DNA from: a virus
Virus record (IMG/VR): IMGVR_UViG_3300017917_001447
Coordinates: 1 to 22,387 of that record
DNA: 22,387 nucleotides
Strand: one strand, 5' to 3'
Each line of letters starts with the position of its first letter. Position 1 is the first letter of the stretch. The translations under genes were made by a program, and so were the position numbers. The notes below the pieces were generated by a model. That model was not told the origin of the DNA, made no database searches, and was given only the letters and a program-made list of their open reading frames with translations. Shown piece after piece: positions 1,081 through 22,202 of the stretch.

Positions 1081-1112
1081 CAAATATACTAAACAAATTT
1101 CAATTGATTAAA
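1081..1112 (-). promoter_or_regulatory. Possible Bacteroidota-type promoter, near-leaderless start
   Basis: In the minus direction TATATTTG (1088-1081) matches the Bacteroidota -7 consensus TAnnTTTG exactly. A TTTA (one mismatch to the -33 TTTG) lies 20 bp upstream, within the usual 19-21 bp. Only four bases separate the -7 element from the ATG at 1076, so the transcript would start at or next to the start codon. The site could equally be a degenerate copy of the ATATTTAT late motif or a chance match in AT-rich DNA. Confidence 0.3.
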
Positions 1113-4100
1113 CACTTAGCGAATTATTTTTTATTTTTTGATAATATTGTTGCGCATAAGAATATCTAACACTAGGAGTTGGGTATTCCGAAAATATAGT
1201 ATTAGACCAACCAGTTGTACCATAAACTGTTCTTTCATATGTTACATAAAAAATTTCACAAGCATCGTTTACGCTTTCAACGTTTTTCAAAGCGTTTAAT
1301 GTGTATGTAAATTTATTAACCAACTCATAATTTAAGAAACCTATTTGAGCTTCTTTTGAATTTAATTTTAATTTATTTTTTTTAGCATATTCTACTAAAT
1401 TAGTTTGTCTGTCAGCTCTCCATTGTGCTAAACCATAAGCTCCTTTATTACCACCATCAGCGTTAAATGCTCCCGCAACAAAACGACTTTCAGCAAATAA
1501 ATTACCCATAATACCAGCTATGGCTTCATCAGATAATTTCGTGTCTTTTTTAAGTTGTTTATATATAGCATCAGCAGGTATCGAATCTTTAGATAAAATA
1601 AGGTTAGGATTAGATTCACTACCATCACCAGATTTAATATATCTATAATCACAACCAGTATATACTGCAACTTTATTATCTTTACCTTTAGGGTTTTTAA
1701 CAATACTTTTATATTCAGCTGTTACTTTAGGTGTGTAACCATAAGTTGAAGGTTGTTTGTTGTATAAACACTTAGCTGATGTACCATGGTATTCAAAATG
1801 CCAAAATTCTTCAACACCTTTATTTTTACCCTCTCTAAGATTTTGCGGTATAATAAAACCAAATTTATAACTATTATCTAAAAACCATTTTAAAGATGGG
1901 TTTATATCTATATTAAAACCTATTTCAATTGTTCTTTTATTGTTAGGTATTGGTGTTTTGTTTTCAATAATTTCTTTTTCACCATTAACAAGATATTCAG
2001 CTTCTTTTTGTGCTAAGAATTGAAAATCAACCGCCACACCCCAACCATGATTTGAATTACCAGGATAAGCAGCAGTTCCGTCACCATTTGATGCAGCATA
2101 CAAATCTCTTTGTTTTTGTATGTTTCTAAACAAACTATTTATTGAAATGTAACCCTCTTTTTTATTATCAAATTTATATTTAGGGAAACTATTAGATTTA
2201 GCGTGTGTCACAAATGCGTTAAGCATTTCAACAAGTGCATCAGTAGCTTCAGTTATTAGAATATTTTCATTAGGTATATTTTGTTTAGCATTGTAAACAT
2301 CTGTTATCTCTGGTACTAATTTTGATGTGATGTTATTTTTAAATGGATTACCGTTAGAACCTTGATTTTCTGCTATTGTCGCAACTAAAGGTGGGTATGA
2401 GCCAGCTGCAACAGCATTAGCAGAGCCTGTAGCATTTTCACCCATTTCTAATATTTTAATTAAGTTTGAATAAGCATCAGCCACATCAAATATTGGCGTT
2501 TCAACAGCTCTAATTCTAGTACCAGTAAAAATAGTAGACATATGGTTTGGTTTTATATTATGTCTAACTCTAGTAATCATATAAGCACCATGAAACATTG
2601 GTATATTATCTAATTGAAAATACATAAGTGGTTGAACCATGGCATTACCGAGCATTTCAATTTCAGCTGAATAACTTCTAACCGCGTATACATTATACAT
2701 ATTTTGACCAGCAAATCTATTTTGGTTTTCACCATTTTTATCTGCAATATCACTAATGATTTTTAAAGATTCTTCAGTTTCAGCAAACTCTGTTTGGTCT
2801 AAAGAAATATCTTTAAATATATTTTGATTTTGTTGTGAATATTTAACGCTAAACACAGATACTGGGTCTTCATATGGTTTTGCCACACCATCAACATCAA
2901 CTGTTCTTAAATCTTGTTTAAAATCTTCAGGTACTGAGGTTGATAAACTATTGTTTAAATCACATCTAATGTCAAAACCATCATTAGGGAATCTAGCTTT
3001 ATTGAAATCTAATTGTATTGAAGGTTGTCCTGCATAAACCGAAACAAATGATGGACCACAAGATGTGATAGGGTTATCGTAATTTGAAAAAGGTTTAAAC
3101 ATGTCTTTCAATACTTTTTCATCATAAAAATTTATGAAGGTTGGTAAAGAATGAAATGTGAATTTATTATCTGTTAATATTTTAGAAATCATATTATATG
3201 ATGTCATGTTTGGTGAAGTTGATACATCGGTACCTATTGGTGTTGGGTCAATGAACATTTCATCACCTATGTCTTTAAACGACCTAGTGACAAATCTAAA
3301 ACTATCAATCAACCTAGGTTGTGTATTGTTATATTTAACAGATAATGCTTTATCAACATTAACATTGTTACCATCTTTAGGATTTTGCCCGCATTGGAAA
3401 ATTATATTGTTTTCATCTGTAACACCAGCTAACCATTTTTCATAAACATTTTTACAGTGATTGTAAAGCATTAATTTTATCTGTTCTTTATCCGCAGTGT
3501 TAAAAGTTTCAAATAATGTTTTATCTTCTTGTGTTTGAACACCTGAATTTATTTCTTGTTTTATCGCGTCTAACAAATATGTTAAGTATGATGTTAATTT
3601 TGTAGATGTAACAGATATTGGAGTTCTTATAATTTTTTGATTTAAATTAGAAGCTTTCACATTAAAACCAGGTGACCTCCATATTGCATAACCAGTATTT
3701 GCAATGATTAGTTCTTCATTAAAAGCTGTTAATAATTTCTTTACAGCATTTGATTCATCTTTTAATTCTAAGAAAATGTATTCATAACCACCAACTTGAT
3801 AACTTACGTTTCCAACTGGAACCATTTCTTTATAATTTCCGTAGTTTTTAAAGTTGTTTTTAATTACATCACCATTAAAATAATATTTATCGTCTATTTC
3901 AGTTAAAAAATTACCAGTACCAGTATTTATTAATTTATCAACTAACCCACAAAATGTAGTAGACGGTCCATCAAATATCTCTAAACTATCTTTTAAAACT
4001 TTAAATGATGTGTAACCACCTAAATCACCATTAACAAAATCAAAAAATACTTTTTTGAATTCATTTTTAACTTGAATTGGTAGTGTTAAAAGAATACTAT

Positions 4101-7100
4101 TATCATCTATTTCTACAGATTTATTTTCAAATATTTTTGGTAAATAATGATTGTCTGATGGTTCTGCTGGCCATGAAGTAGCATTATTACCACATGTTTT
4201 TTTCCAAATTATAGGGTCTTTAATTCCTCTACCACCGCCAACTATTTTTCCATTTAATGTTTCTGGATTTTCTTTTGACATCCACCATAACAAACCACCA
4301 ACATAAGCAACCCAAAGTCTTGGTGCGTGAACAAAACCACCGCTTATATCAAATAAATGTCTAATTTCTGGTATGTTAAATGGGTCTGGTTTTTTATAAT
4401 CAATATTAAAAGGTATTGTATTTAAAAACAACAAAGCCTTAACATAATCTTCTGCTGGTATAGTAGTATTATTCTGCAATGTAACTTTTGCATCTTTTTG
4501 TAAATAATACCATTTACTACCAAATAATGAAAATGCTGTGTATATATCTTCAGCTGTCAAACTTGTATACTGTGAAATATATGGATAAGTGACACTAGTA
4601 GTGTCTTTTATTTGTGTAGCTAAAAGTCTATTCTTACCTAAACTACCATGAATATGATTCCCACCTTGACCAGAACTAAATTCATAATAACCAGCTCCAG
4701 TTGTTTTTTTATATAGATAGTCTTTTTGTTCTGAAGGTAGTTTATTATACGCTAAATTTCTATTTCCAGTTATATTTAAATCGTATGCTGTTGTTAGTGA
4801 TACATCAGTTTTTTTTCTGGTATATGATAAACCTAATCTATAACGACCATCATTAGAATAAAAAACATACATAGACGGTGTGTCAGCTGGTATACCGTTT
4901 GCAAAATCAATTGAAGTGAAATCTTGGATACCGTATACACCACCAAAAGGGTTAAAACCAGAATTTTGGATGTCGTTTTGTTTTAAACTTTCTAATATTA
5001 ATTTTGAATCTGTATTTACGTTTGATTCTAAACTACCATTTAAAGTATATTCTTCTTTGGTTAATATTTTTACATAAATACCACCATCAAAATATTTTTT
5101 GTTGTCAACAGTTTTTACGTCTGGTTCACCATAAAAAGGTCCATAATTTGTTAAAAATAAATTACGACCAATATTTTCACCATTTAAATTACCGTTTGCA
5201 AACTCTATCATTTGAGTTTGTTTAACTGATTTTGCTACTGTTAATGTTTCTGGGTTTGTATTACTAAACGTAGATTGTTGTTGGTTAAAAGGTGTTGAAG
5301 TTGGTGGTACATAAAGTGGGTTATTAACAACCACTGTTTCAGGTTCAACCACAATTTCTTTACCATCTATATCATAACCTATTGGCAATAATTTTGCAGC
5401 ACTGTTATCATCTTCTTTTAGATAATTATAAAAATATCTGTTATTTTCCAAATTAACAACTGGTCTAACTTTTTTATTAACAGTACCTGTAGATTTTAGA
5501 ATTTGATTAATATTAAGAGTGGTAATAACTCTTTTTATTTTTTCATCTTTAATACTATTAATAATAGTTTTAGCCTCATTTTCAGCCAGTTCTTTAATTA
5601 TATCTTCTTTGATATATGTTTCATCGTTTGTATAACCAAAAAATGTTATAGCTCTAAGTAATATTAGTCTATTAATTGATTCGGGTTTTGTTGAATCAAT
5701 TCTCAAGTAAGGATTTAAGTAACCTTTATTTTCATTATTATTTAAAAAATCTGGTGAATTTAAAGGTAAATCTAATACGTTTGTAGGTAGATATATTTTT
5801 AAATCTTTATTTGTTAAAGAGTCTATTTGTTTCTCCGCGTTAGCTTGATATATAAAAGCATTTAATAGATTATCAATGTATTCTACTTCTGGGATTGCAT
5901 TTCTATTCTCAATTCTAGGTGATGAACCTATGAATTTCTCAGTATAAGGTTGTGAATCTTTTGATTTTTCATAATAGCTAGGCCATGGATGATAATTATC
6001 ACCCACATAATCATTACTTCTAGTATCACCAGCAAATATTTTATCTAATTCTTGTTTTCTATTTTCATTGTTATCAGCTGTTATCGAAACTTTGTAAATT
6101 GTGTGCAAAAAAGTTTCAATAGCTGAAGTAAAGATTTCAATTATATTTCTAACATTAGGGTTTAATTTTATCTCTCTTGCTATTGTGTCTCTAACTTCTA
6201 TAGCTAAATTTTGATTAGCTTCAACTAAACTACTTTCAATTATTTGTTTTATGTTTCTTGTTTTTTCTAGTTGACTTCTTAAATCGTAAACTAAAAAAGT
6301 AATATCATCACTTAATGTTATATTATTTGATGTTAATTCAGAATTTAAGTCTTTTTTAAAATTCAGTAAGTTTTCACTAGTAAAACCATTAATTTCAGTT
6401 GACTCATTTACATCAATTATTTTTTTTGTTAAATCAGTTATTGGTTGACCAACTTTTAATTCATCATAATTTATAGTAACACCTTGAATATTTAAATTTT
6501 TTATTGTGTTTACCTGTGTTTTTATATTTTCATTTTTAGAATTAAAAACTTCTGTTAAACCAACATTATTTGTTATTGGGATGTTGTCTAATCTAAGAAT
6601 AAACCTAGTACTATCTAAAGTTCTAGCTTGTGAACCAATTAAACTATCAAAAATTGAAAAACCTTTCAATGTGTTCTCGATTTCCTCAATACTATTTTTT
6701 GCATCGGAAAATGTTTTTAATATTTGAGAATTCTCTGAATTTTGTGAAGCTTTCTGTAATTCTTCGCTTAAAGTTGCTATTAAATTTCTAAATTCATGAA
6801 TTGTTGGTACTTTATTTTCTTTGTTTTGGTTATAAGCAGCAAAAATTTCAGCGCCAATTTTTGTTGATTGGTTTGCTTTTAATACACCTATAAGCATATC
6901 TGCTAACATAGCATAAGTATAACCAATAAATTCAGCTCTAATTTCAAAATTACCAGTTTGTGAATTGAACTTAGAGTTAAACTTTACCATGTGAAGACAA
7001 TATTTTACAGGATACCCATAATAACCCTTAACCTCTAACTCAAATAAAGGATATGGAAAATCAAAAAATACAGAATATGGGTTTTCACTTCCAGCTTGTT

Positions 7101-7536
7101 TTAAATTATCTTCATTTTGAAAAATACTAGAACCTCTAACATCTATAAAATCGATAGTAACTTTAGGAACAATTGATGTGTCGAAGTCAATATCTATATT
7201 GGTTATACCTAATGTTTCATTGTTAGAATCCAACTCAAACACGGTTGTCAAATCAGTAAACTTTGTTGTTAAAGTTTTTCTACCGTTAACTAATGAACCA
7301 TCAAAAAAACTAACACTAATACTTTTAGATGATTGTGAAGTAGCTCCATTATCACCACCTTCTTCTGCTATAATAACAGTTCTACCTCTTCTATATGAGG
7401 TTAATTTAACTTGAATCGTTAAGTCTTCATTAGGTACTGGTATGTTTCGATTTAAATCACCACCAACAAAATCGTTAGGGTCAACTAACCTTAATCTATT
7501 ACCGCTTATAGCGCATCCAGCTTTTTTATTCTCCAT
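1108..7536 (-). CDS. Giant baseplate hub protein with C-terminal M15 peptidase and tail lysozyme domains
   Basis: This 2142-residue protein probably forms the central baseplate hub/spike. About residues 1-1705 look structural. Residues about 1615-1705 hold a hub-like stretch (EIEMLGNAMVQP..., then GAYMITRVRHNIKPNHMST) of the kind I associate with gp27/gpD-like hub proteins of contractile tails. Residues about 1735-1925 form a VanY/M15-type D-Ala-D-Ala peptidase: the zinc-binding pattern S-N-H1830-G-x-G-x-A-x-D1837 and E1910-F-W-H1913 are intact. After a linker, about 1988-2138 resemble a phage tail lysozyme, with a probable catalytic Glu2016 in NLFAESRF and a YGLAQW motif. The ATG overlaps the gp53-like gene's stop by 11 bases, so the pair is co-translated. 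T4 splits these jobs between gp27 and gp5 (576 aa with one lysozyme), so both length and domain content are unusual. Role at infection: local peptidoglycan digestion in the periplasm. Confidence 0.88.
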   Translation of the reverse strand: MENKKAGCAISGNRLRLVDPNDFVGGDLNRNIPVPNEDLTIQVKLTSYRRGRTVIIAEEGGDNGATSQSSKSISVSFFDGSLVNGRKTLTTKFTDLTTVFELDSNNETLGITNIDIDFDTSIVPKVTIDFIDVRGSSIFQNEDNLKQAGSENPYSVFFDFPYPLFELEVKGYYGYPVKYCLHMVKFNSKFNSQTGNFEIRAEFIGYTYAMLADMLIGVLKANQSTKIGAEIFAAYNQNKENKVPTIHEFRNLIATLSEELQKASQNSENSQILKTFSDAKNSIEEIENTLKGFSIFDSLIGSQARTLDSTRFILRLDNIPITNNVGLTEVFNSKNENIKTQVNTIKNLNIQGVTINYDELKVGQPITDLTKKIIDVNESTEINGFTSENLLNFKKDLNSELTSNNITLSDDITFLVYDLRSQLEKTRNIKQIIESSLVEANQNLAIEVRDTIAREIKLNPNVRNIIEIFTSAIETFLHTIYKVSITADNNENRKQELDKIFAGDTRSNDYVGDNYHPWPSYYEKSKDSQPYTEKFIGSSPRIENRNAIPEVEYIDNLLNAFIYQANAEKQIDSLTNKDLKIYLPTNVLDLPLNSPDFLNNNENKGYLNPYLRIDSTKPESINRLILLRAITFFGYTNDETYIKEDIIKELAENEAKTIINSIKDEKIKRVITTLNINQILKSTGTVNKKVRPVVNLENNRYFYNYLKEDDNSAAKLLPIGYDIDGKEIVVEPETVVVNNPLYVPPTSTPFNQQQSTFSNTNPETLTVAKSVKQTQMIEFANGNLNGENIGRNLFLTNYGPFYGEPDVKTVDNKKYFDGGIYVKILTKEEYTLNGSLESNVNTDSKLILESLKQNDIQNSGFNPFGGVYGIQDFTSIDFANGIPADTPSMYVFYSNDGRYRLGLSYTRKKTDVSLTTAYDLNITGNRNLAYNKLPSEQKDYLYKKTTGAGYYEFSSGQGGNHIHGSLGKNRLLATQIKDTTSVTYPYISQYTSLTAEDIYTAFSLFGSKWYYLQKDAKVTLQNNTTIPAEDYVKALLFLNTIPFNIDYKKPDPFNIPEIRHLFDISGGFVHAPRLWVAYVGGLLWWMSKENPETLNGKIVGGGRGIKDPIIWKKTCGNNATSWPAEPSDNHYLPKIFENKSVEIDDNSILLTLPIQVKNEFKKVFFDFVNGDLGGYTSFKVLKDSLEIFDGPSTTFCGLVDKLINTGTGNFLTEIDDKYYFNGDVIKNNFKNYGNYKEMVPVGNVSYQVGGYEYIFLELKDESNAVKKLLTAFNEELIIANTGYAIWRSPGFNVKASNLNQKIIRTPISVTSTKLTSYLTYLLDAIKQEINSGVQTQEDKTLFETFNTADKEQIKLMLYNHCKNVYEKWLAGVTDENNIIFQCGQNPKDGNNVNVDKALSVKYNNTQPRLIDSFRFVTRSFKDIGDEMFIDPTPIGTDVSTSPNMTSYNMISKILTDNKFTFHSLPTFINFYDEKVLKDMFKPFSNYDNPITSCGPSFVSVYAGQPSIQLDFNKARFPNDGFDIRCDLNNSLSTSVPEDFKQDLRTVDVDGVAKPYEDPVSVFSVKYSQQNQNIFKDISLDQTEFAETEESLKIISDIADKNGENQNRFAGQNMYNVYAVRSYSAEIEMLGNAMVQPLMYFQLDNIPMFHGAYMITRVRHNIKPNHMSTIFTGTRIRAVETPIFDVADAYSNLIKILEMGENATGSANAVAAGSYPPLVATIAENQGSNGNPFKNNITSKLVPEITDVYNAKQNIPNENILITEATDALVEMLNAFVTHAKSNSFPKYKFDNKKEGYISINSLFRNIQKQRDLYAASNGDGTAAYPGNSNHGWGVAVDFQFLAQKEAEYLVNGEKEIIENKTPIPNNKRTIEIGFNIDINPSLKWFLDNSYKFGFIIPQNLREGKNKGVEEFWHFEYHGTSAKCLYNKQPSTYGYTPKVTAEYKSIVKNPKGKDNKVAVYTGCDYRYIKSGDGSESNPNLILSKDSIPADAIYKQLKKDTKLSDEAIAGIMGNLFAESRFVAGAFNADGGNKGAYGLAQWRADRQTNLVEYAKKNKLKLNSKEAQIGFLNYELVNKFTYTLNALKNVESVNDACEIFYVTYERTVYGTTGWSNTIFSEYPTPSVRYSYAQQYYQKIKNNSLSV

Positions 7537-12372: not shown

Positions 12373-14814
12373 TCAACCTCTATTTTTACCACCATTTAAT
12401 GTTTTCTCAAGTTGTGAGTGAACTAATTTAACAATTGATGATTTAAATTCTGTATTTTTGGCCAATTCAATAGCCATTGTTGTATTACCTGGCATTTCAA
12501 CCTTTATATTTCCACTAATATTTAAATCACCAAATTCAATTTTTGTTGAAGAAACTTGATTTTGATTTGATTGGTTAAGGGTTTTATCAACCACTCCACC
12601 AGGTTTCATTGCTAACAATTCATCTTTATTATTAATTGGTTTTATCTCACCACCTTGTAATAAAGCTCTGCCTTTTGAATGTGTTTGAGGTAAATTATTT
12701 TTTAGTTTAGGTACATATACATCATCACCAGGTGAAGTAACATTTACTTCATCTTGATTTGCCATATCACCAAAATATTTACCACCAAAACCACCAATTA
12801 ACGCACCTGTACCACCTAAAGCCGCAGCAGTTAAAGCTAACGAACTACCACCAGTAAAAGGTGCTAATGCTAAACCTAACACACCACCAGCAATTGCTAA
12901 ACCAGTACCCCACTTATCACCAGCTTTTGTTGATTTTCTACCACTTGCCTCAGTTGCTTTTTCACCAAGCCAATTACCAGCAACACCAGCCGCAGCTGTA
13001 GCCATTAAAGGGCCAGCTACTCTAGCAAAATTTTTAGCCAAGATAGAACCTAATCCACCACCAGTAGTACCACCTAAAAAGCCTTGTGCTAACGCAAAAC
13101 CATTTACAATCCAATTGGCTTTTTCAAATAAAAACGATAAGGCCTTACCACCTAACCATGCGGCAAATATACCTTTTGGACCTAATTGTATTGCCAACTG
13201 AGCTAGACTCTTAAACCATTGAGCACCAGTGACTGCAAACTCAGCTAACCATTTACCTAATTTTTTTAATTCATCTCTAAAACCCTTTCCTTTTTCACCA
13301 GTTAAATCATCAACAAGTGGTCCTAAAACACCTGTGATTCCTTCAAGTATTGGCATCATGGCTATTTTAACCATGTTTATCAAGTTCCCTATTTTTTCAT
13401 CGAAGGATTGTGCTGCTTTAGCTCTTTCTTCAAGTGTTTTTTTCTCAGCAATCCTATCTTTTATTATTTTTTTATCAGCACTAGTAAGCATACTAAGTAA
13501 TTTTGGTTTACCATCTATTTCAATAGTTGCTTTACCATCTTTGAATTCAGCTGTATTAGCGATAAACTCTTTAGTCTCGTCATCAACACCAAAAACTTGT
13601 GTTTTTATTTTACCTAATTTAAAAGCTTTTTTACCAGCTTCTAACAAATCATCATATTCAAGACCAGTTTGTTGCGCCACAATTTTAAGTCTATGCATTT
13701 CCATAGCAGTTGTTTCAATACTACCATCTTTAGCAAATGACATAGATTCTTTTGCAGCATTTGCAATTTCTTCAGTAAGACCCTTAACATCATTACGAGC
13801 CATATACATAAGCCTAAAAGGGTCTGCAAGCCTAGACCATGCACCACCCATAACTTGTAATTGAGCAGACATTTCAATAGCTGGTTCTAAGTCAAACAAT
13901 TTATCAGCCATTCCAGATGCAAATTTCATATCGACACCTAACTTAGTAACAGTTTTAGCCATTTCAGCAAGACCCTTAGCACCGTCCTTGAAACGATACC
14001 TGTTAAGCATTTTAATGTTACCAGATATGTTTTTAATTACCTTGGTAGCGTTAAGACCCATTTTGCTAGAACTATTAAGTGTATCTTCAACAAAACTTGC
14101 GGTTTTTTCAGCTGACAAACCTTGAGAGTCAAATTCAGCGGCCATTTGTGCCGCCCCTTCAATACCCAACTGTGTCGCGTTAGCCATAGCCGAAACAGTT
14201 TTGAGAGCATTTTCATTCATCATAACGTTTCTACCAATGGCTTCAGAATAACCAGCTTGTAACTCAGCCAATTCTTTTATACCAGCCCCAAAACCAATAG
14301 TGTCTAAAGAAGTTTCAGTTATATTACGTCTAAAAGCTTCACTACTTTTATCCATTAGACCCATATCTCTAGCCGCAATTCTAATAGATTTGTCCATTTC
14401 GAACATATCTTTAAATTTGCCAGCAAAATTACTAATAAGAGATGGTATTTTACCAATATTACCAACGGCTTTAGCAGTACCAGCAGCAAAAGAAGCACCA
14501 GCTTGACCAAGAGTCATCTTTAACAGCTTAGCGTCTTTTATTGCTTCTTTGTTTAAATCTCTAGCTAATTTTAATTTTTTTATTTGCTTATCTAAAACAG
14601 CTATTTTAGCTTCGGCAACTTTTTTATCCTCACCAGTCAACGTTGACAAATCAGCCATTAATTTTTTCCTATTTTCAGTAGCTGTATCAATCGACTTGTT
14701 TATTTTTTTAAGTTCCTCAACTTTTTTCAAATAAGAATCTAACCCAGCGTTTACTTCAGCTTGGAGTGCGGCGTATCTTTTTAAATCATTATTTATATCG
14801 TCACTTAATGCCAT
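12373..14814 (-). CDS. Tape-measure protein candidate
   Basis: The product has 813 residues. The first ~110 are a Lys/Glu/Leu-rich coiled-coil-like stretch, followed by long amphipathic Ala-rich helices to about 540. About residues 550-680 are Gly/Ala/Leu-rich and hydrophobic (for example AAWLGGKALSFLF and ALIGGFGGKYFGDM), the membrane-active segment typical of tape-measure proteins. The C-terminus ends in a small beta-like part (IEFGDLNISGNIKVEM) and a basic tail. The tape measure sets tail length and is thought to be ejected ahead of the DNA. The ATG is 2 bp after the stop of the 434-aa gene, so both are on one message, and a strong terminator follows. The gp26-like gene and its overlapping ORF lie two genes upstream, as expected for tail-assembly factors. 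The assignment rests on composition and context. Confidence 0.78.
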   Translation of the reverse strand: MALSDDINNDLKRYAALQAEVNAGLDSYLKKVEELKKINKSIDTATENRKKLMADLSTLTGEDKKVAEAKIAVLDKQIKKLKLARDLNKEAIKDAKLLKMTLGQAGASFAAGTAKAVGNIGKIPSLISNFAGKFKDMFEMDKSIRIAARDMGLMDKSSEAFRRNITETSLDTIGFGAGIKELAELQAGYSEAIGRNVMMNENALKTVSAMANATQLGIEGAAQMAAEFDSQGLSAEKTASFVEDTLNSSSKMGLNATKVIKNISGNIKMLNRYRFKDGAKGLAEMAKTVTKLGVDMKFASGMADKLFDLEPAIEMSAQLQVMGGAWSRLADPFRLMYMARNDVKGLTEEIANAAKESMSFAKDGSIETTAMEMHRLKIVAQQTGLEYDDLLEAGKKAFKLGKIKTQVFGVDDETKEFIANTAEFKDGKATIEIDGKPKLLSMLTSADKKIIKDRIAEKKTLEERAKAAQSFDEKIGNLINMVKIAMMPILEGITGVLGPLVDDLTGEKGKGFRDELKKLGKWLAEFAVTGAQWFKSLAQLAIQLGPKGIFAAWLGGKALSFLFEKANWIVNGFALAQGFLGGTTGGGLGSILAKNFARVAGPLMATAAAGVAGNWLGEKATEASGRKSTKAGDKWGTGLAIAGGVLGLALAPFTGGSSLALTAAALGGTGALIGGFGGKYFGDMANQDEVNVTSPGDDVYVPKLKNNLPQTHSKGRALLQGGEIKPINNKDELLAMKPGGVVDKTLNQSNQNQVSSTKIEFGDLNISGNIKVEMPGNTTMAIELAKNTEFKSSIVKLVHSQLEKTLNGGKNRG

Positions 14815-14816
14815 AA

Positions 14817-16121
14817 TTAATTGTTTTTATCTGATTTATAACCATCCGAATCTAAGAATTTTATGATAACATTTTTTTGAACAAATTTATCTGGTTCACC
14901 ACTATATTTGTTTTTATCAACATATACATTACAATAAAACTCATCAGGTTTTTTACCTGTTGGTTCTTTAACTTTTATTTTGAATCCTTCTTGTGAATTA
15001 ATAAGAACTTTTGAATCGCCATCCCCACCTATATAAGGTTTAACAAGAGCTACGTGTTTTCCAGATAAACTAAGAACGTTTTCTTTATTACCTTTGGTCA
15101 CATATTCTATTTCAACTGGTGTTTTAAAAATTAATTCAGCCATCTTATTGTTTTTATTTGTAAACCCTGGAAATTTCTCAGCAATCTTTCTTTCGTAATA
15201 ACTGTTAACCAAATTTAGCGCTGGGTAAATACCACTTCCAATAGCTTTTTCTTTTTTAAGTGCAGCAACAAAATAGTTCCACAAAGAAGGGGCTGTATAA
15301 AAAGCGGCTCTCATATTAGGGTCGTTAACAATATCCTTGTAATATTTTTTAAGTATATTAACGTTAGTTTCAACTATACTGTAATTTTCGTATTGTATTT
15401 TTATTTTATTAAAATCACCTGTTGCTTCATTCTCTGTATAAAGAGTGATAGTTTTATTTGTTGAATTCCATGAAGTTTTTGTCAATATATAATCTTTTTT
15501 TTCTTCGTCTGTAAAATGATATTCTTCATTTTCTTTTTTAATAAAATCTAGTTTTATATTTTTACCATCTTCTTTTGTTATTAATAAAGATTCTTCTGGT
15601 TGTATATTAACAACATCTTCTGGTAATTGTGTAAAAGTAATGTTAGGGTCTAATTCTATTGGTTCACTCTTATCATCAACTGATTGTTGAGGTTCTTGTT
15701 GTGGTTGAGGTTGTGGTTCTTCTTGTGGTTCTGGTTGTGGTTTGGTTTTACCAGCTTCGTTTTCATCTGAAGAAGAAACCAAATCATTATCCCTCCAAAC
15801 TTTCATATTTTCAACATTAACTTTAAATGGTTTGAATTGTTTAGTGTTTTTATCAAAAGTTGAATAGGTTAAAGAATTTGTTGAATCGTCATAGCCATTA
15901 AAAGTTAACTTTATAGATTCATTATTTGGTCCATAACATAAAATTTCATTGTCAGAAAAATTAACACTAACCACTTTTAAATTAACGGTTTTACCACCCT
16001 TAACTTCAAAACTTAATATATCATTAGCTTTTACTAATTTTAAGTCATCGTTAATGTTTTCAACCAAGAATTTGGTTAAATTATAATACTGTTGTTCAGT
16101 TAATTTAATCTTTTTTTTCAT
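14817..16121 (-). CDS. Unidentified 434-aa late protein with a cleavable-looking N-terminus
   Basis: I place the start at the ATG of MKKKIKLTEQQYYNL (16121). The upstream in-frame ATG at 16154 would run through the promoter-like motif and encode an unlikely hydrophobic leader. Residues 1-21 share the pattern basic/Ile, L/I-T-E-x-Q-Y...L-x-E with the 123-aa protein encoded between sheath and tube. Beta-rich halves flank a Pro/Gln/Glu-rich linker at about residues 125-145. A helical part at about 260-320 (PNMRAAFYTAPSLWNYFVAAL) looks conserved in style but I cannot name it. It is co-transcribed with the tape measure (2 bp gap). It could be a tail-completion or internal virion protein; function unknown. 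Confidence 0.8.
   Translation of the reverse strand: MKKKIKLTEQQYYNLTKFLVENINDDLKLVKANDILSFEVKGGKTVNLKVVSVNFSDNEILCYGPNNESIKLTFNGYDDSTNSLTYSTFDKNTKQFKPFKVNVENMKVWRDNDLVSSSDENEAGKTKPQPEPQEEPQPQPQQEPQQSVDDKSEPIELDPNITFTQLPEDVVNIQPEESLLITKEDGKNIKLDFIKKENEEYHFTDEEKKDYILTKTSWNSTNKTITLYTENEATGDFNKIKIQYENYSIVETNVNILKKYYKDIVNDPNMRAAFYTAPSLWNYFVAALKKEKAIGSGIYPALNLVNSYYERKIAEKFPGFTNKNNKMAELIFKTPVEIEYVTKGNKENVLSLSGKHVALVKPYIGGDGDSKVLINSQEGFKIKVKEPTGKKPDEFYCNVYVDKNKYSGEPDKFVQKNVIIKFLDSDGYKSDKNN
15686..15750 (-). repeat. Pro/Gln/Glu low-complexity linker repeat
   Basis: Degenerate CCA/CAA/GAA-type codon repeats encode an alternating Pro-Gln-Glu tract (KPQPEPQEEPQPQPQQEPQQ) that separates the two halves of the 434-aa protein. 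It is probably a flexible or extended spacer. Confidence 0.7.
16059..16121 (-). other. Candidate N-terminal targeting peptide (ends L-V-E)
   Basis: Residues 1-21 of the 434-aa protein: MKKKIKLTEQQ, then YYNLTKFLVE. The end L19-V20-E21 fits the L/I-x-E part of the T4 prohead protease (gp21) cleavage rule, although Asn22 is not the preferred small residue. Compare 19205-19255 and 18139-18225. Confidence 0.4.
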
Positions 16122-16154: not shown

Positions 16155-16177
16155 AAATCCCCAAAAAATGGGGATTT
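16155..16177 (-). terminator. Intrinsic terminator after the gp26-like/small-ORF pair
   Basis: Eight-base stem AAATCCCC/GGGGATTT with a seven-base T-rich/A-rich loop, followed by TTTTTG in the minus direction. It sits 1-2 bases past the stop codon at 16179 and just before the next promoter-like motif. Confidence 0.82.
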
Positions 16178-16178
16178 A

Positions 16179-16511
16179 TTAATTAAGTGGTATTTGCCCA
16201 GTTTGCATTTTTGTTTTTAATGCGTCTCCAGAAATTTTACTTTGTCTTGAACCCTTAGCATGTTTGTTAGATGTTGTGTTTCCAGTATCTTCAAGTGTTT
16301 TTTCTCTTTGTTTTACCAATAAGTCAATGAAAAATCTTCTTTCATATACTGGCATCATCATAGCATCGTCGTAGCCCATATTTAAATTTTGTATACAAAT
16401 AAAGACTTCTTGTAAAACGATTGGTTTATACTCTGAACTCAGGCCAAAAAAAGTTGACGTTAAGGGGAAGAAAGGTTTTGATGGACCCACCTCCAGGAGT
16501 CCCAACCTCAA
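16179..16511 (-). CDS. Small tail/baseplate-assembly ORF overlapping the gp26-like gene in the +1 frame
   Basis: The open frame runs from a TTG at 16511 to 16179 and overlaps the gp26-like gene by 86 bases. The distinctive part begins after the overlap: SSEYKPIVLQEVFICIQNLNMGYDDAMMMPVYERRFFIDLLVKQ, where MPVYERRFF resembles the M-P-x-x-x-R-x-[FY]-[FY] motif I recall in small ORFs following gp26-like genes of T4-type phages. There is no ATG before this motif's own region: the first is at 16379, inside it, and would give 66 aa. The real product is therefore either an extension of the gp26-like protein made by +1 (or -2) frameshifting at the T7 run (about 508 residues in all), or a protein started from TTG, CTG or the internal ATG. 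The C-terminus is polar and disordered. A tail-assembly chaperone role is inferred from position upstream of the tape measure. Confidence 0.6.
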   Translation of the reverse strand: MRLGLLEVGPSKPFFPLTSTFFGLSSEYKPIVLQEVFICIQNLNMGYDDAMMMPVYERRFFIDLLVKQREKTLEDTGNTTSNKHAKGSRQSKISGDALKTKMQTGQIPLN

Positions 16512-17706
16512 TATTCAAATCAATACCACTGTCCAAAGTGTTTGCGAATTCATTAAAAGCCTTAGAATCCCCAACTCTCATATAGTTTACAAAGTCTCTA
16601 ATAACAATTTTATTTCTTTCTCCGTTTACTTCAACAATCATTTTTTCCAATTTATATGTGTTTGTATTGTTTACTGGAATTCCGTTTTCTTCATCCTTCT
16701 TCACCATATCTTCGATATCGTCAATATCACCACATGTTAACAATTTGAATCTAACAGTGGCTTTGCTAATTGGCATAGTGAATGAAAATAACCCTTCTTC
16801 ATCTGTTTCAGCTTCAAGGTCAATAGTTTTTAACTCATTCAAGTTTATTTCAGTGTCAAATGGTTCGTCAAATTCATCCAACAAAGTTACTGGATACATC
16901 TCGCCATAGGCTGTTGCTCTAAGCCAAATCATGATAGCATTTCTATCACCTGGCAATAAGTCTCTATATCTCAATTCAGGTTCAAGCAACTTTCTATTGA
17001 TAAGAATTTCCAAAAATTCACCGCTCTTTAACAAGTTTGGACTTGTAAGGATATTCTCGTCAGAAGTTGTCATAAAAGACAATCTAACGTTAGATTTTTT
17101 ACTTTTATATAGTTTACCCTTAGAAGGCAACGGAATAACGTCAAATGGTGCGTTATAGTTTGGTTGGCTCAACTCTAAGATGTAAGGGTCAACTGTTGGT
17201 TGTGGTACAAAAGATTGAGTTGGTTTAGTAGCCATAGCAGGGCTAGATGGGTTTGGTTGATAGTTAGGTTGTGTTTGCATAGTCTTTTGCTCGTAATATT
17301 GTTTATTTCTACCCATGGCTTCTTCTGAAAGCTTTTGATAATTTTGAGTTTGTTCTAGATTCTTTTTCAATTGCTCATCTCTAAGTCTCATTTGTTCATT
17401 GTAACCATCTTCTTTAGTAGGTTGTTGATAAACCCTAGAAGTTGTTCTTTCAGCCAAAGAAGGGTCTTTTACAACACCCATTTCTTGTTTTTGTTGTAAT
17501 TGAGCTTGAGTTCTAAGTCTCATCTGTTCAACAGCGCTCATATGTTCATAAGGTGTGTCTTCAGCAAATTGAGATTCGTAGATTTGATTTGTAACCATAG
17601 CCTTTTCAGCCTCGTATGCTGCAAGTTTTTCGGCTTCGCTTAAATTGTTGTTATCGTTGTTTTGTGGTTGATTGTTTGGAAAAACATTTGGTCTAATGTC
17701 TGGCAT
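16426..17706 (-). CDS. gp26-like baseplate hub/assembly protein (T4_baseplate family)
   Basis: The product has 426 residues. Residues 1-180 are Gln/Asn/Glu-rich and probably disordered or helical. From about 183 on the sequence follows the pattern I know from the T4 gp26/T4_baseplate family: FDVIPLPSKGKLY, then SFMTTSDENILTSPNLLKSG, LLPGDRNAIMIWLRATAYGE and a C-terminal FFWPEFRV. In T4, gp26 (208 aa) is needed to assemble the central hub; the Gln-rich N-terminal half is an addition. It has its own promoter-like motif about 35 bp upstream, and is followed without a gap by the overlapping small ORF. Its last codons cross a run of seven T. Confidence 0.78.
   Translation of the reverse strand: MPDIRPNVFPNNQPQNNDNNNLSEAEKLAAYEAEKAMVTNQIYESQFAEDTPYEHMSAVEQMRLRTQAQLQQKQEMGVVKDPSLAERTTSRVYQQPTKEDGYNEQMRLRDEQLKKNLEQTQNYQKLSEEAMGRNKQYYEQKTMQTQPNYQPNPSSPAMATKPTQSFVPQPTVDPYILELSQPNYNAPFDVIPLPSKGKLYKSKKSNVRLSFMTTSDENILTSPNLLKSGEFLEILINRKLLEPELRYRDLLPGDRNAIMIWLRATAYGEMYPVTLLDEFDEPFDTEINLNELKTIDLEAETDEEGLFSFTMPISKATVRFKLLTCGDIDDIEDMVKKDEENGIPVNNTNTYKLEKMIVEVNGERNKIVIRDFVNYMRVGDSKAFNEFANTLDSGIDLNIEVGTPGGGSIKTFLPLNVNFFWPEFRV
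16446..16452 (-). other. Seven-T run: candidate frameshift site
   Basis: In the gp26-like frame this reads AAC TTT TTT TGG. Skipping one T after the two Phe codons (or slipping back two) enters the downstream small ORF at GGC CTG AGT; a -1 slip instead meets TGA after two codons. The run lies six codons before the zero-frame stop. Confidence 0.4.
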
Positions 17707-17753: not shown

Positions 17754-17778
17754 AAAACAAATTTTTTTGTAAATAAAA

Positions 17779-17798
17779 AAGCCTCTATATAGAGGCTT
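17779..17798 (-). terminator. Intrinsic terminator after the 138-aa gene
   Basis: A perfect palindrome, arms AAGCCTC/GAGGCTT around TATATA, followed by T-rich sequence in the minus direction. It lies 11 bp past the stop at 17809. Confidence 0.85.
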
Positions 17799-17808
17799 TA
17801 TTTATTAA

Positions 17809-18310: not shown

Positions 18311-18799
18311 TTAGAATAATAAGATTGCTCTGTCAAATCTAAGAGTTGCTGTAATCTCAGCGATACCGTCATCTTCGAATGACAAGTCACCAAATCCAAC
18401 ATTTGTAAGCATGGTTCCATCAAGTAACCATTTTTCAATAACAACACCTGTTGGGTCAAGCATTTCAAGCTCAACTGGTCTTTTATAACCAGCAGCATAA
18501 CCTTGACGACCTGTGATTGATTCAGAATGAAGACGAACCCATTCCATAATAGCTTGAGTAGCAGAAGGACCAATTGGGTCACGGAACGTAACGTCAATCG
18601 CTTCCCATGTAAATCTACCAATAACCCAAGTAGATGTGTTTAGGAAAGGAATCTCAACCTCATTTTGTGTTATTGAAGGTCTAGAAGCTGAAGATAACCA
18701 CCATTGTTGGATACCTAAATCAGCAGGGAATGTAATCAACCAACGATTCTTTTTCTTAGGCTCGTATGGTAGGGGCATTTTCATTAATAAATCAGCCAT
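18311..18799 (-). CDS. gp19: Tail tube protein, gp19-like
   Basis: The product has 162 residues, almost the length of T4 gp19 (163). It polymerises as stacked hexameric rings into the inner tube through which DNA passes. The sequence has the tube signatures: KKNRWLITFPADLGIQQW near the N-terminus, SRPSITQNEVEIPFLN (about 40-55), FTWEAIDVTFRDPIGP (about 65-80), and a C-terminal LTNVGFGDLSFEDDGIAEITATLRFD beta region. The gene follows the sheath with one small gene between. It has its own promoter-like motif upstream and terminator downstream, suited to a protein needed in high copy number. Alternative in-frame Met6 or Met8 starts are possible. Confidence 0.93.
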   Translation of the reverse strand: MADLLMKMPLPYEPKKKNRWLITFPADLGIQQWWLSSASRPSITQNEVEIPFLNTSTWVIGRFTWEAIDVTFRDPIGPSATQAIMEWVRLHSESITGRQGYAAGYKRPVELEMLDPTGVVIEKWLLDGTMLTNVGFGDLSFEDDGIAEITATLRFDRAILLF

Positions 18800-19334: not shown

Positions 19335-22202
19335 TTAGATGTTATCGAAAGATGCACCAGTGTTCATAATTACGAACTCTAACTGGATAAATTCTAACGC
19401 TCTAGTTGGTTTCAAGAATATTTGACCTGTAAGTTGATTTCTGTCGATATCTTCTGGGTCATTTGAAAGAACCACTCTAAAGTCTGTAAGACCTCTTTCA
19501 GCTCTAATGTTATCAAGGATTGGATTAACCAATGACAAGAATTGATTTCTTACAACGCTATCATTTTGTTCGAACAACAATCTGATAGAAACAGCAGAGA
19601 TAAGTTTTCTAGCTTGTAACAATAGTCTTCTAACGTTGATTCTGTCAAGAGCAGATTCTTTAACTTGAAGAGTCTTATTACCCCAGATTTTAATACCATC
19701 TGTTGTAAATGTTGCAATTGGGTTAACTCTATTCTCGTATAACGCATCTCTTTCAGCAAGAGTAAGTTTTTTACGAGCTTGGATAGCGTCAACATCACCT
19801 CTTTGGATACCAGCAACCGCAAACCATGGGAATGCAATGTTGTCAGTCAATGCGATGTTTCTTACTACGTCTCTTGTAGGTGGCATCCAGATGTAAACGT
19901 TGTTTTCAGTATCGTTTACTTGAATCCATGGCCAATAAGTACAAGAGTAATTACTGTCGAAGGAACCATCTGAGTAGAAGTCTGAAATTTCTTCAGCTGT
20001 CATTACATCACCACCAGCATTAACATCTGGAGTTGTAAGGATGTAAAGTGAGTCAGCTCTATCAGTTTCAACCATTTCGATTGCAGCTTCAATTAAGTTG
20101 CTGTTGTCGAATGTATCGATACCTGGTGTTGCAAACACGTTGATGTTAACAGCCTCAGGATTTTTGAACGTCCAGATACCTTCTAAGTATGCGTAGTAAT
20201 CAGAGTTGATACCTAAATCACCATTAGAAAGTGTTCTGTTGCTAAACGCACCTGAATCTAAACCTTTAACACCATTAGAGTTGTTAATAAGGAAAGAATC
20301 TAAATTACTTCTTCTAGTTCTGTAAATATCCCATCCATCAAAACCACCGTATGGTGCGAATGTAAACTTACGAGCGAATATTTTGTTATATGGGTTGTTA
20401 GTATCCGCAACAGCTGTAGCGTTAAACGCAGCATCACCAGTATCAAATAAGAATATTGGGCTGTATGTATCACCACTAGAATTAATAACGATAAACACAT
20501 TGTCAATTGTAGCACCAGTAGCATTTACGTCCATGTGGAAACCTTTTGTAAGACCTGTCCACATATTGTATGTTTGACCAACTGGAATACCTTTATAATC
20601 AAAGAAATCAGCGTCAATTCCAACGGTTTCTGATAAACCTAAATATGCTTTACGTTTGTTTTCAAAAGCACTATAAGCTGTTTTATATTCAATGCTTGGG
20701 TCTACAACGCTTGTGTTACCATTTTCTTGGTAATCTCTAATTGGGTAACCAACAAAACCAGCTGGAATCATATCGCTTGTATCAGACTCAGTATCCATTT
20801 CAATAAGAACATAAGCTGATTTAGAAGGATATTCACCATCAAGTGTACCAATTCTTCTAGCAATATAGTTGTTAGAAGTTGGGCTCATAGTTACACGACT
20901 GAATGTTTCCAACACTGTTGGTTGAGCATCTGTATCATAGAAACTTCTAATAACAACATCAAATTCACCAGAATCTAAGTTGATGTTTCTAATAGAAACT
21001 TTAAATTGTTCGTTAGCCGCATTACCATCAGAAATAGTCCAGAATCTAAACAATCTGAATAAATTGGTACCACGTAACTCAGAAACAACATAAGGTGTAA
21101 CCGCTGGTTGATATTCTTCTAAATAATCATTGAACACAGCATCTTGTCCAGTTGGCCCATAGTTTACTAAATTTAAGTTAATACCATATATTTTTTCATT
21201 AGCGTTTAAATCGCTAAACATGTTTCTATAGAATTCTTCAACAAATACAGCAGTAGTACCATCTTGTGCTTCTCTACCCAATACTCTAGTAATATAATTT
21301 TGTTTAGTTCTATCAAATGACATTACATAACTAAAAGCACCTTGAGTGTTAGACACACCTGTCAAAGCAAAATCACCAGTAGCGCTAGTATTAGCATCTG
21401 TATATATTGGGTCAAAACCTAAGTTACCCGTTGCAGCACTAACTTCAAAATTAGGTAACTGTGTAGCTGTATTAATTGTAGCTCTTGAACGTAACAACGC
21501 AACCAATTTATTTTCAACATCAGAATAAGCAGAACCTGAATAAGTTGAAGTTACACCTGTTGTTGTACCAGTAACATATGAACCAGAAGTTCCAAATGAA
21601 TTAACGTATAAATCAAATGATGTTCCTGTAAATGAAGAACCATTCTTAAGGTAAGATGTCTCAACACTTCCAGTTTGACCAGTTCCAGTTACAAAACCTA
21701 AGAATGCTAAATCAGAAGCGATAGTTCCATTATCATAAAGAGTTTGAATCAATGGGTCAGCTGAAACTACAGTAACTAATGTACCACCAGTTGTAGCGGT
21801 ATATGAAATTAATGGATTGTATGTGTTACCAGTTGATGTGGTAACAACAGTTGCTGGGTCTAAAGCACCTTGAAGGGTAATACCCCATGCTGGACCAGCA
21901 TTATAACCAGATAAACCTAAAATTCTAGTTACGAATAATTGGTTTGATTGGCTTAAATATGATTTAGCGATATAAGGTAACTCATATTTTGGTGCTCCAG
22001 TATCTTTTATTTTGGTAGCATTTTGCCCACCAAAGAAAGATTGGAATTCGCCATAGTTGCTAACAAAGATAGGTTGGAAAGCTGGACCAATAGTAGTCTC
22101 ACCAACTAACCCAAGAGTTGTTACACCAATTTGACGTGTAATAAAAGATAAGTCTTTTTCTGAGGTATAAACCCCTGGACTTACGAACACTTTTGTTGCC
22201 AT
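19335..22202 (-). CDS. gp18: Contractile tail sheath protein, gp18-like
   Basis: The product has 955 residues. The sheath wraps the tube and contracts to drive it through the host envelope. The N-terminus VFVSPGVYTSEKDLSF is the classic T4-type sheath start. The C-terminal core carries VNPIATFTTDGIKIWGNKTLQ (about 825-845), the segment that forms the conserved inner domain, and ends with FLKPTRALEFIQLEFVI. T4 gp18 is 659 residues, so about 300 residues are extra; residues about 115-230 are Ser/Thr/Gly-rich and probably belong to outward-facing insertion domains. The start is the ATG at 22202, preceded by a ~45-base A/T leader without Shine-Dalgarno and a promoter-like motif. A terminator follows. 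Confidence 0.95.
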   Translation of the reverse strand: MATKVFVSPGVYTSEKDLSFITRQIGVTTLGLVGETTIGPAFQPIFVSNYGEFQSFFGGQNATKIKDTGAPKYELPYIAKSYLSQSNQLFVTRILGLSGYNAGPAWGITLQGALDPATVVTTSTGNTYNPLISYTATTGGTLVTVVSADPLIQTLYDNGTIASDLAFLGFVTGTGQTGSVETSYLKNGSSFTGTSFDLYVNSFGTSGSYVTGTTTGVTSTYSGSAYSDVENKLVALLRSRATINTATQLPNFEVSAATGNLGFDPIYTDANTSATGDFALTGVSNTQGAFSYVMSFDRTKQNYITRVLGREAQDGTTAVFVEEFYRNMFSDLNANEKIYGINLNLVNYGPTGQDAVFNDYLEEYQPAVTPYVVSELRGTNLFRLFRFWTISDGNAANEQFKVSIRNINLDSGEFDVVIRSFYDTDAQPTVLETFSRVTMSPTSNNYIARRIGTLDGEYPSKSAYVLIEMDTESDTSDMIPAGFVGYPIRDYQENGNTSVVDPSIEYKTAYSAFENKRKAYLGLSETVGIDADFFDYKGIPVGQTYNMWTGLTKGFHMDVNATGATIDNVFIVINSSGDTYSPIFLFDTGDAAFNATAVADTNNPYNKIFARKFTFAPYGGFDGWDIYRTRRSNLDSFLINNSNGVKGLDSGAFSNRTLSNGDLGINSDYYAYLEGIWTFKNPEAVNINVFATPGIDTFDNSNLIEAAIEMVETDRADSLYILTTPDVNAGGDVMTAEEISDFYSDGSFDSNYSCTYWPWIQVNDTENNVYIWMPPTRDVVRNIALTDNIAFPWFAVAGIQRGDVDAIQARKKLTLAERDALYENRVNPIATFTTDGIKIWGNKTLQVKESALDRINVRRLLLQARKLISAVSIRLLFEQNDSVVRNQFLSLVNPILDNIRAERGLTDFRVVLSNDPEDIDRNQLTGQIFLKPTRALEFIQLEFVIMNTGASFDNI

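Follow-up and report, generated by a model that had tools for sequence, protein, structure and literature searches.

The 22,387-nucleotide stretch of viral DNA analyzed here (the window) very probably belongs to a T4-related myovirus that makes short and long tail assembly chaperones by a programmed +1 ribosomal frameshift. The analysis showed a conserved architecture, a conserved slip site, selection acting on both reading frames, the predicted fold of a relative's fusion, and the gene context; that the shift occurs, how efficient it is, that it moves by exactly +1 and that the proteins act as chaperones are inferred. Most ribosomes would read a gp26-like gene to its stop codon at 16428-16426, yielding a short chaperone (TAC-N). 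In a minority, tRNA-Phe would occupy the P site at TTT TTT TGG while the TGG is slowly decoded, and the ribosome would move one base forward, the tRNA re-pairing from UUU to UUU in the window and from UUU to UUC in relatives. Reading on in the +1 frame would add an 88-residue helical domain (TAC-C) and produce a long chaperone (TAC-NC). By analogy with gpG/gpGT of lambda, many short and few long copies may then coat the tape measure protein, with the long form recruiting tube subunits.

The gp26-like gene, encoding the putative TAC-N, runs from an ATG at 17706 to 16426 on the minus strand (426 aa), and its 3' end is overlapped by a second open reading frame that ends at 16179 on the same strand. 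The codons around the seven-T slippery run (16452-16446) are AAC (16455-16453), TTT (16452-16450), TTT (16449-16447) and TGG (16446-16444). The second TTT would be the P-site codon at the slip and TGG the zero-frame A-site codon, with base 16446 skipped in the predicted +1 product. The +1-frame extension, a putative TAC-C, occupies 16445-16179 on the minus strand (88 codons plus stop), begins with GLSSEYKPIVLQEVFICIQNLNMGYDDAMMMPVYERRFF, and is supported by matches to an extension HMM and by pN/pS. Removing one base at the T run joins 420 and 88 residues into a single fusion of 508, the predicted TAC-NC, which spans the complete frameshifted gene (17706-16179, minus strand). A sequence-only reading had let the two frames meet at AAC TTT TTT TGG, which lies at 16455-16444, with a fusion of about this size, and both points were confirmed. 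The -1 frame in the window is closed within 14 codons.

The idea of programmed frameshifting is further supported by the junction alignment, in which the slippery run, the overlap and the +1 extension are all conserved among relatives. Further loci were sought with a profile scan and a protein scan (at least 80 each). Among the matches listed, 173 loci gave a significant extension-HMM match in the +1 frame, and among these a plain single-frame fusion was not found in the window's lineage; they include isolates of Flavobacterium, Bacillus, Listeria, Streptococcus and Microcystis phages. In the close relatives L004-L006 (75-77% identical) all seven T are retained along with the +1 extension, and the extension is also in +1 at 25-34% identity in Flavobacterium phage immuto, Microcystis phage Mel-JY01, the huge phage LR756508, Listeria phage LIS04, Streptococcus phage GXN1 and Bacillus phage SP-15. 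Bacterial or archaeal MAG contigs carry it in +1 in 8/8 loci; the profile scan of these contigs was built from an alignment of fused rows (A5), MAFFT having misplaced unpaired extension fragments in A3. Two such contigs, L202 (CP070664.1, a WOR-3 MAG) and L200 (a Woesearchaeota MAG), contain a +1 chaperone gene that may come from a provirus or a misbinned phage. The entries outside the 173 are truncated contigs, a set with a -1 extension, L108, in which the gp26 frame looks interrupted, and Rhodothermus phage RM378, whose extension was judged by inspection to be in +1. When an open +1 frame is defined as an overlap of at least 15 nt plus at least 40 codons open past the stop, this frame is open in 132/132 gp26 genes vs. 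17/416 other genes on the same contigs, although the loci are related to one another and such counts overstate their independence. A sequencing or assembly error had also been considered, whereby one extra T would split a gene that is really one continuous frame, and the site is indeed a homopolymer. However, the error would need to recur in every relative, and the same frame relation is present in every lineage relative, in isolates as well as differently assembled MAGs, and at interrupted runs too. This explanation is therefore ruled out, and the probability left to it is negligible.

Selection was compared between the two frames in 421 related pairs, giving pN/pS values of 0.29 for the core, 0.34 for the extension and 0.25 for the first 20 extension codons after the gp26 stop. 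Judged from these sequence comparisons, the extension is under purifying selection directly past the gp26 stop, ahead of most possible starts. This bears on whether the downstream frame is instead a separate small gene, starting at ATG 16379 or at a TTG or GTG within gp26. The earlier claim that no ATG precedes the distinctive segment stands only in part: an in-frame ATG at 16379-16377 (MGYDDAMMMPVYERRFF) does precede MPVYERRFF and is found at the same place in L004, but the conserved extension begins 22 codons ahead of it (GLSSEYKPIVLQEVFICIQNLN), and upstream of that point in the window only TTG and GTG codons inside gp26 are available as possible starts. The extension codons upstream of ATG 16379 are themselves selected, with a pN/pS of 0.14-0.16 between the window and L004/L005, and in these two close relatives the conserved extension segment is preceded by zero start codons. 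Possible start positions are inconsistent among relatives, many of which have none before the conserved segment; 38 of 135 loci lack any ATG, GTG or TTG in the +1 frame upstream of the slip site and 91 lack an ATG. Immuto, SP-15 and Mel-JY01 each have the downstream frame annotated as its own CDS, which agrees with a separate gene, yet an independent start is extremely improbable given these constraints. Phage records including those of SP-15 and immuto would accordingly present the C-terminal domain as a truncated gene of its own.

The composition of the slip site was assessed after dereplication, over 135 loci. Of these, 134/135 have TTT as the shift codon, although TTC makes up 23% of Phe codons elsewhere, and the single exception is CTT in immuto (TTT CTT TGG); the base after the shift codon is T or C in 134/135. 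The commonest forms are TTT TTT TGG (n = 70) and TTT TTT CGN (n = 54). Arginine codons in the A site are CGN in 56/56 cases, whereas in the rest of these genes AGR accounts for 73% of the Arg codons, and at the 17 CGG A-sites a change to AGG would alter neither protein. Both the next-base and the CGN preference are what UUU-to-UUY slippage of tRNA-Phe requires, and an A-site codon of UGG, or of CGN, which is uncommon in these genes, is plausibly slow to decode. The next-base preference alone has no power to separate +1 from -2, since under a -2 slip this base is fixed by the Phe it encodes.

The sequence-only reading had allowed either direction, and the +1 half of that proposal is now the better supported. 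A slip by -2, the step that phage Mu uses, would make the same two chaperones plus one extra Phe; 130/135 sites re-pair perfectly for both +1 and -2, and LIS04 (TTT TTT AGT) fits -2 better than +1. However, three exceptional sites, L015 (AAC TTT CTA) and L017 and L071 (TTC TTT CG), offer no good P-site re-pairing for -2 whereas +1 re-pairing is perfect, which makes the -2 slip unlikely. Given that a shift happens, we are highly confident that its direction is +1. Another possibility is transcriptional slippage, in which RNA polymerase drops one T and the long form is translated from edited mRNA. T7 or T6 runs are present at 131/135 sites, as this would favor, but the +1 extension is kept in the four loci with only three consecutive T, and at the sites where the run is interrupted (TTC TTT CG, AAC TTT CTA and TTT CTT TGG). 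Slippage would also be expected to add bases and so to open the -1 frame, yet this frame lacks conservation in the lineage, and we consider transcriptional slippage very unlikely beside the ribosomal +1 shift.

Around the slip site, the Gly codon at -4 from the slip codon is GGG in 56/83 cases, compared with 11% GGG among Gly codons elsewhere, and C-class loci such as L041, L070 and L079 have a conserved GGGG that precedes the P-site codon by ~8 nt, possibly a Shine-Dalgarno-like stimulator. Rfam gave no match above gathering score at the slip site, RNA folding, which covered the window's own site, did not establish a conserved stimulator downstream, and there are no tRNA genes in the window.

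The gp26-like protein of the window matches PHROG_150, labeled "baseplate hub," over residues 195-404 (E 7.7e-5), as do its relatives in L008 (E 9.8e-6) and SP-15 (E 2.9e-31). The SP-15 homologue also matches PF12322 (E 1.5e-28), while the Pfam search returned no match, PF12322 included, for the window protein itself; its family membership therefore comes via PHROG_150 and the relatives. The conserved core covers residues about 187-420. Residues 1 to ~180 (17706-17170, minus strand) are Q/N/P-rich and of low complexity, and similar long N-termini occur within the window's clade (L004-L006, L008, L020-L027), family members being mostly about 245-300 aa. PMC3004832 counts gp26 and gp51 of T4 among the chaperones of hub assembly, and both belong to PF12322/PHROG_150. 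Of the 282 profile positions, gp51 matches up to 280 and gp26 up to 235, 47 positions short of the end, and this coverage is as expected for a long and a short form. The extension may be homologous to the C-terminal domain of gp51: its profile scored 9.5 bits against the gp51 C-terminus, which is weak although the match falls where it should, the best of 1000 shuffled gp51 sequences scoring 7.9. In direct profile comparison, the single T4 gp26 and gp51 sequences matched the fusion alignment of the window's group weakly, and the T4 link thus rests on PF12322/PHROG_150. The predicted structure of the fusion in the relative L079 (pLDDT 92.0, pTM 0.86) is one compact protein with a helical extension. 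Among solved chains, this fold matches best the tail assembly chaperone of HK97 (2ob9; Z 5.3, rmsd 3.6, 87 residues); no other solved chain exceeds Z 5, and the match is modest, since Z scores below 8 can arise by chance; a Foldseek search against solved structures gave nothing significant (best E 0.77). T4-like baseplate hub (assembly) proteins are prominent among the matches in a viral structure library.

The gene order in the window is sheath, tube, gp26-like gene, a 445-aa gene and a putative tape measure, all on the minus strand where placed: the tail sheath protein lies at 19335-22202 (PHROG_23, E 7.2e-60), the gp19-like tail tube protein, the presumed partner of the long form, at 18311-18799 (PHROG_4542, E 1.2e-25), and the putative tape measure, the presumed chaperone client, at 12373-14814 (813 aa). 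The gp26-like gene is thus situated between tube and tape measure, and in immuto it is directly ahead of the annotated tape measure. The putative tape measure had no match in family searches and is named from its position and a weak match to the immuto tape measure (BLASTP 28% over 154 aa, E 0.001). It should be noted that the 445-aa gene separates the extension from the putative tape measure, which is unusual in a chaperone operon and counts against the proposed role. Hairpins with T tracts flank the gene and its extension, one terminator-like and directly 3' of the extension stop (16155-16177, minus strand; the same hairpin is found in L004/L005) and one upstream of the gp26-like gene (17778-17799, terminator-like on both strands), and both frames therefore look like one transcription unit. 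Elsewhere in the region, a recurring N-terminal peptide (KKKIKLTEQQYYNL, MKIIITESQYNRLF, MGKKIKINETQFNSIL, MKRVIITENQREIM) is carried by otherwise different proteins, near 16120, 19255 and 18200 in the window (all minus strand) and after the extension in L004 and L008. A 2142-aa tail protein (1108-7536, minus strand) has a lysozyme-like C-terminal domain (residues about 1990-2104), to which both PHROG_9570, labeled as tape measure, and an endolysin family match.

Shift direction was mapped on a quick tree of cores whose deep branches are long and unsure. On it, +1 is found in the large group containing the window, the two T4 genes sit on long branches, and a -1 extension is present in cyano- and pelagiphages (S-PM2, HTVC008M type), Atu_ph07, PA5oct and LR756511; the tree requires a minimum of two switches between +1 and -1. 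The known poly-T arrangement, with the extension in -1 after T TTT TTY, does not describe the window or its lineage, where the extension is in +1. The annotations of S-PM2 (L199:5191-5364) and HTVC008M (L105:16366-16503) give the -1 extension a gene of its own, a "baseplate hub assembly catalyst" (gp51 in S-PM2); these are probably -1 frameshift extensions of gp26 and not separate genes. The abstract of a 2022 study by Vladimirov and colleagues reportedly describes genes 26 and 51 as the two chaperone forms, with frameshifting in other T4-like groups. A 2016 review (PMC5009743) describes tail-gene frameshifting as a conserved trait of long-tailed phages, with T4 as the exception. The T4-like tail assembly chaperones have since been identified, according to the papers that cite the work (Vladimirov, Gautam and Davidson, 2022, Virology 566:9-15; cited in PMC10885494, PMC12846349), and the earlier view that frameshifting was not established for the gp26 lineage is out of date in the light of these citations. 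Some T4-like phages have a short gene and a separate long gene (PMC10885494), and the same study is cited for -1 signals of the poly-T type in the TAC-N genes of T4-like phages (PMC12846349). Our literature search found no report of a +1 shift in the T4-like chaperone family, which does not prove absence, and no description for tail genes of a UUU-Y +1 site before a sense codon.

The principle of short and long chaperones is therefore already known, and what we describe is a well-supported variant of a known mechanism, whose new aspect seems to be that the shift is +1 throughout a large environmental lineage. We lean toward the broader view that long-form production has been switched within one homologous family between -1, +1 and two genes, and that a large uncultured myovirus lineage uses +1 at UUU-Y before UGG or CGN. 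If true, shift direction is not fixed within a homologous family, a single +1 site becomes available in over a hundred natural versions, and the T4 baseplate genes 26 and 51 are linked to a frameshifted relative.

Among known systems, the T4-like chaperones are closest, sharing the core family PF12322/PHROG_150, the short/long logic and a poly-T near the end of the short form; however, T4 uses two genes, 26 and 51, where the window has one gene and a predicted +1 shift, and the other T4-like groups named above shift -1. The lambda gpG/gpGT and P2 E/E' genes likewise lie upstream of the tape measure and give a rare long product with a C-terminal domain, but they shift -1, and family searches reported no sequence similarity to them. 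A conserved poly-T shift in a myovirus is also known for the Pakpunavirus/Andersonviridae chaperone, although in -1 and at GTTTTT (PMC12846349). The tail-gene frameshift of halovirus HSTV-2, very likely +1 (PMC5009743), has the same direction and occurs in the same gene class, and it is on these two points that this archaeal virus is likened to the window. Finally, at the CUU UGA +1 site of prfB (release factor 2) the P-site tRNA slips onto UUU, to which the immuto site TTT CTT TGG is similar; prfB has a stop codon in the A site, whereas the window's lineage has a sense codon (TGG or CGN) there, and no autoregulation is proposed for it.
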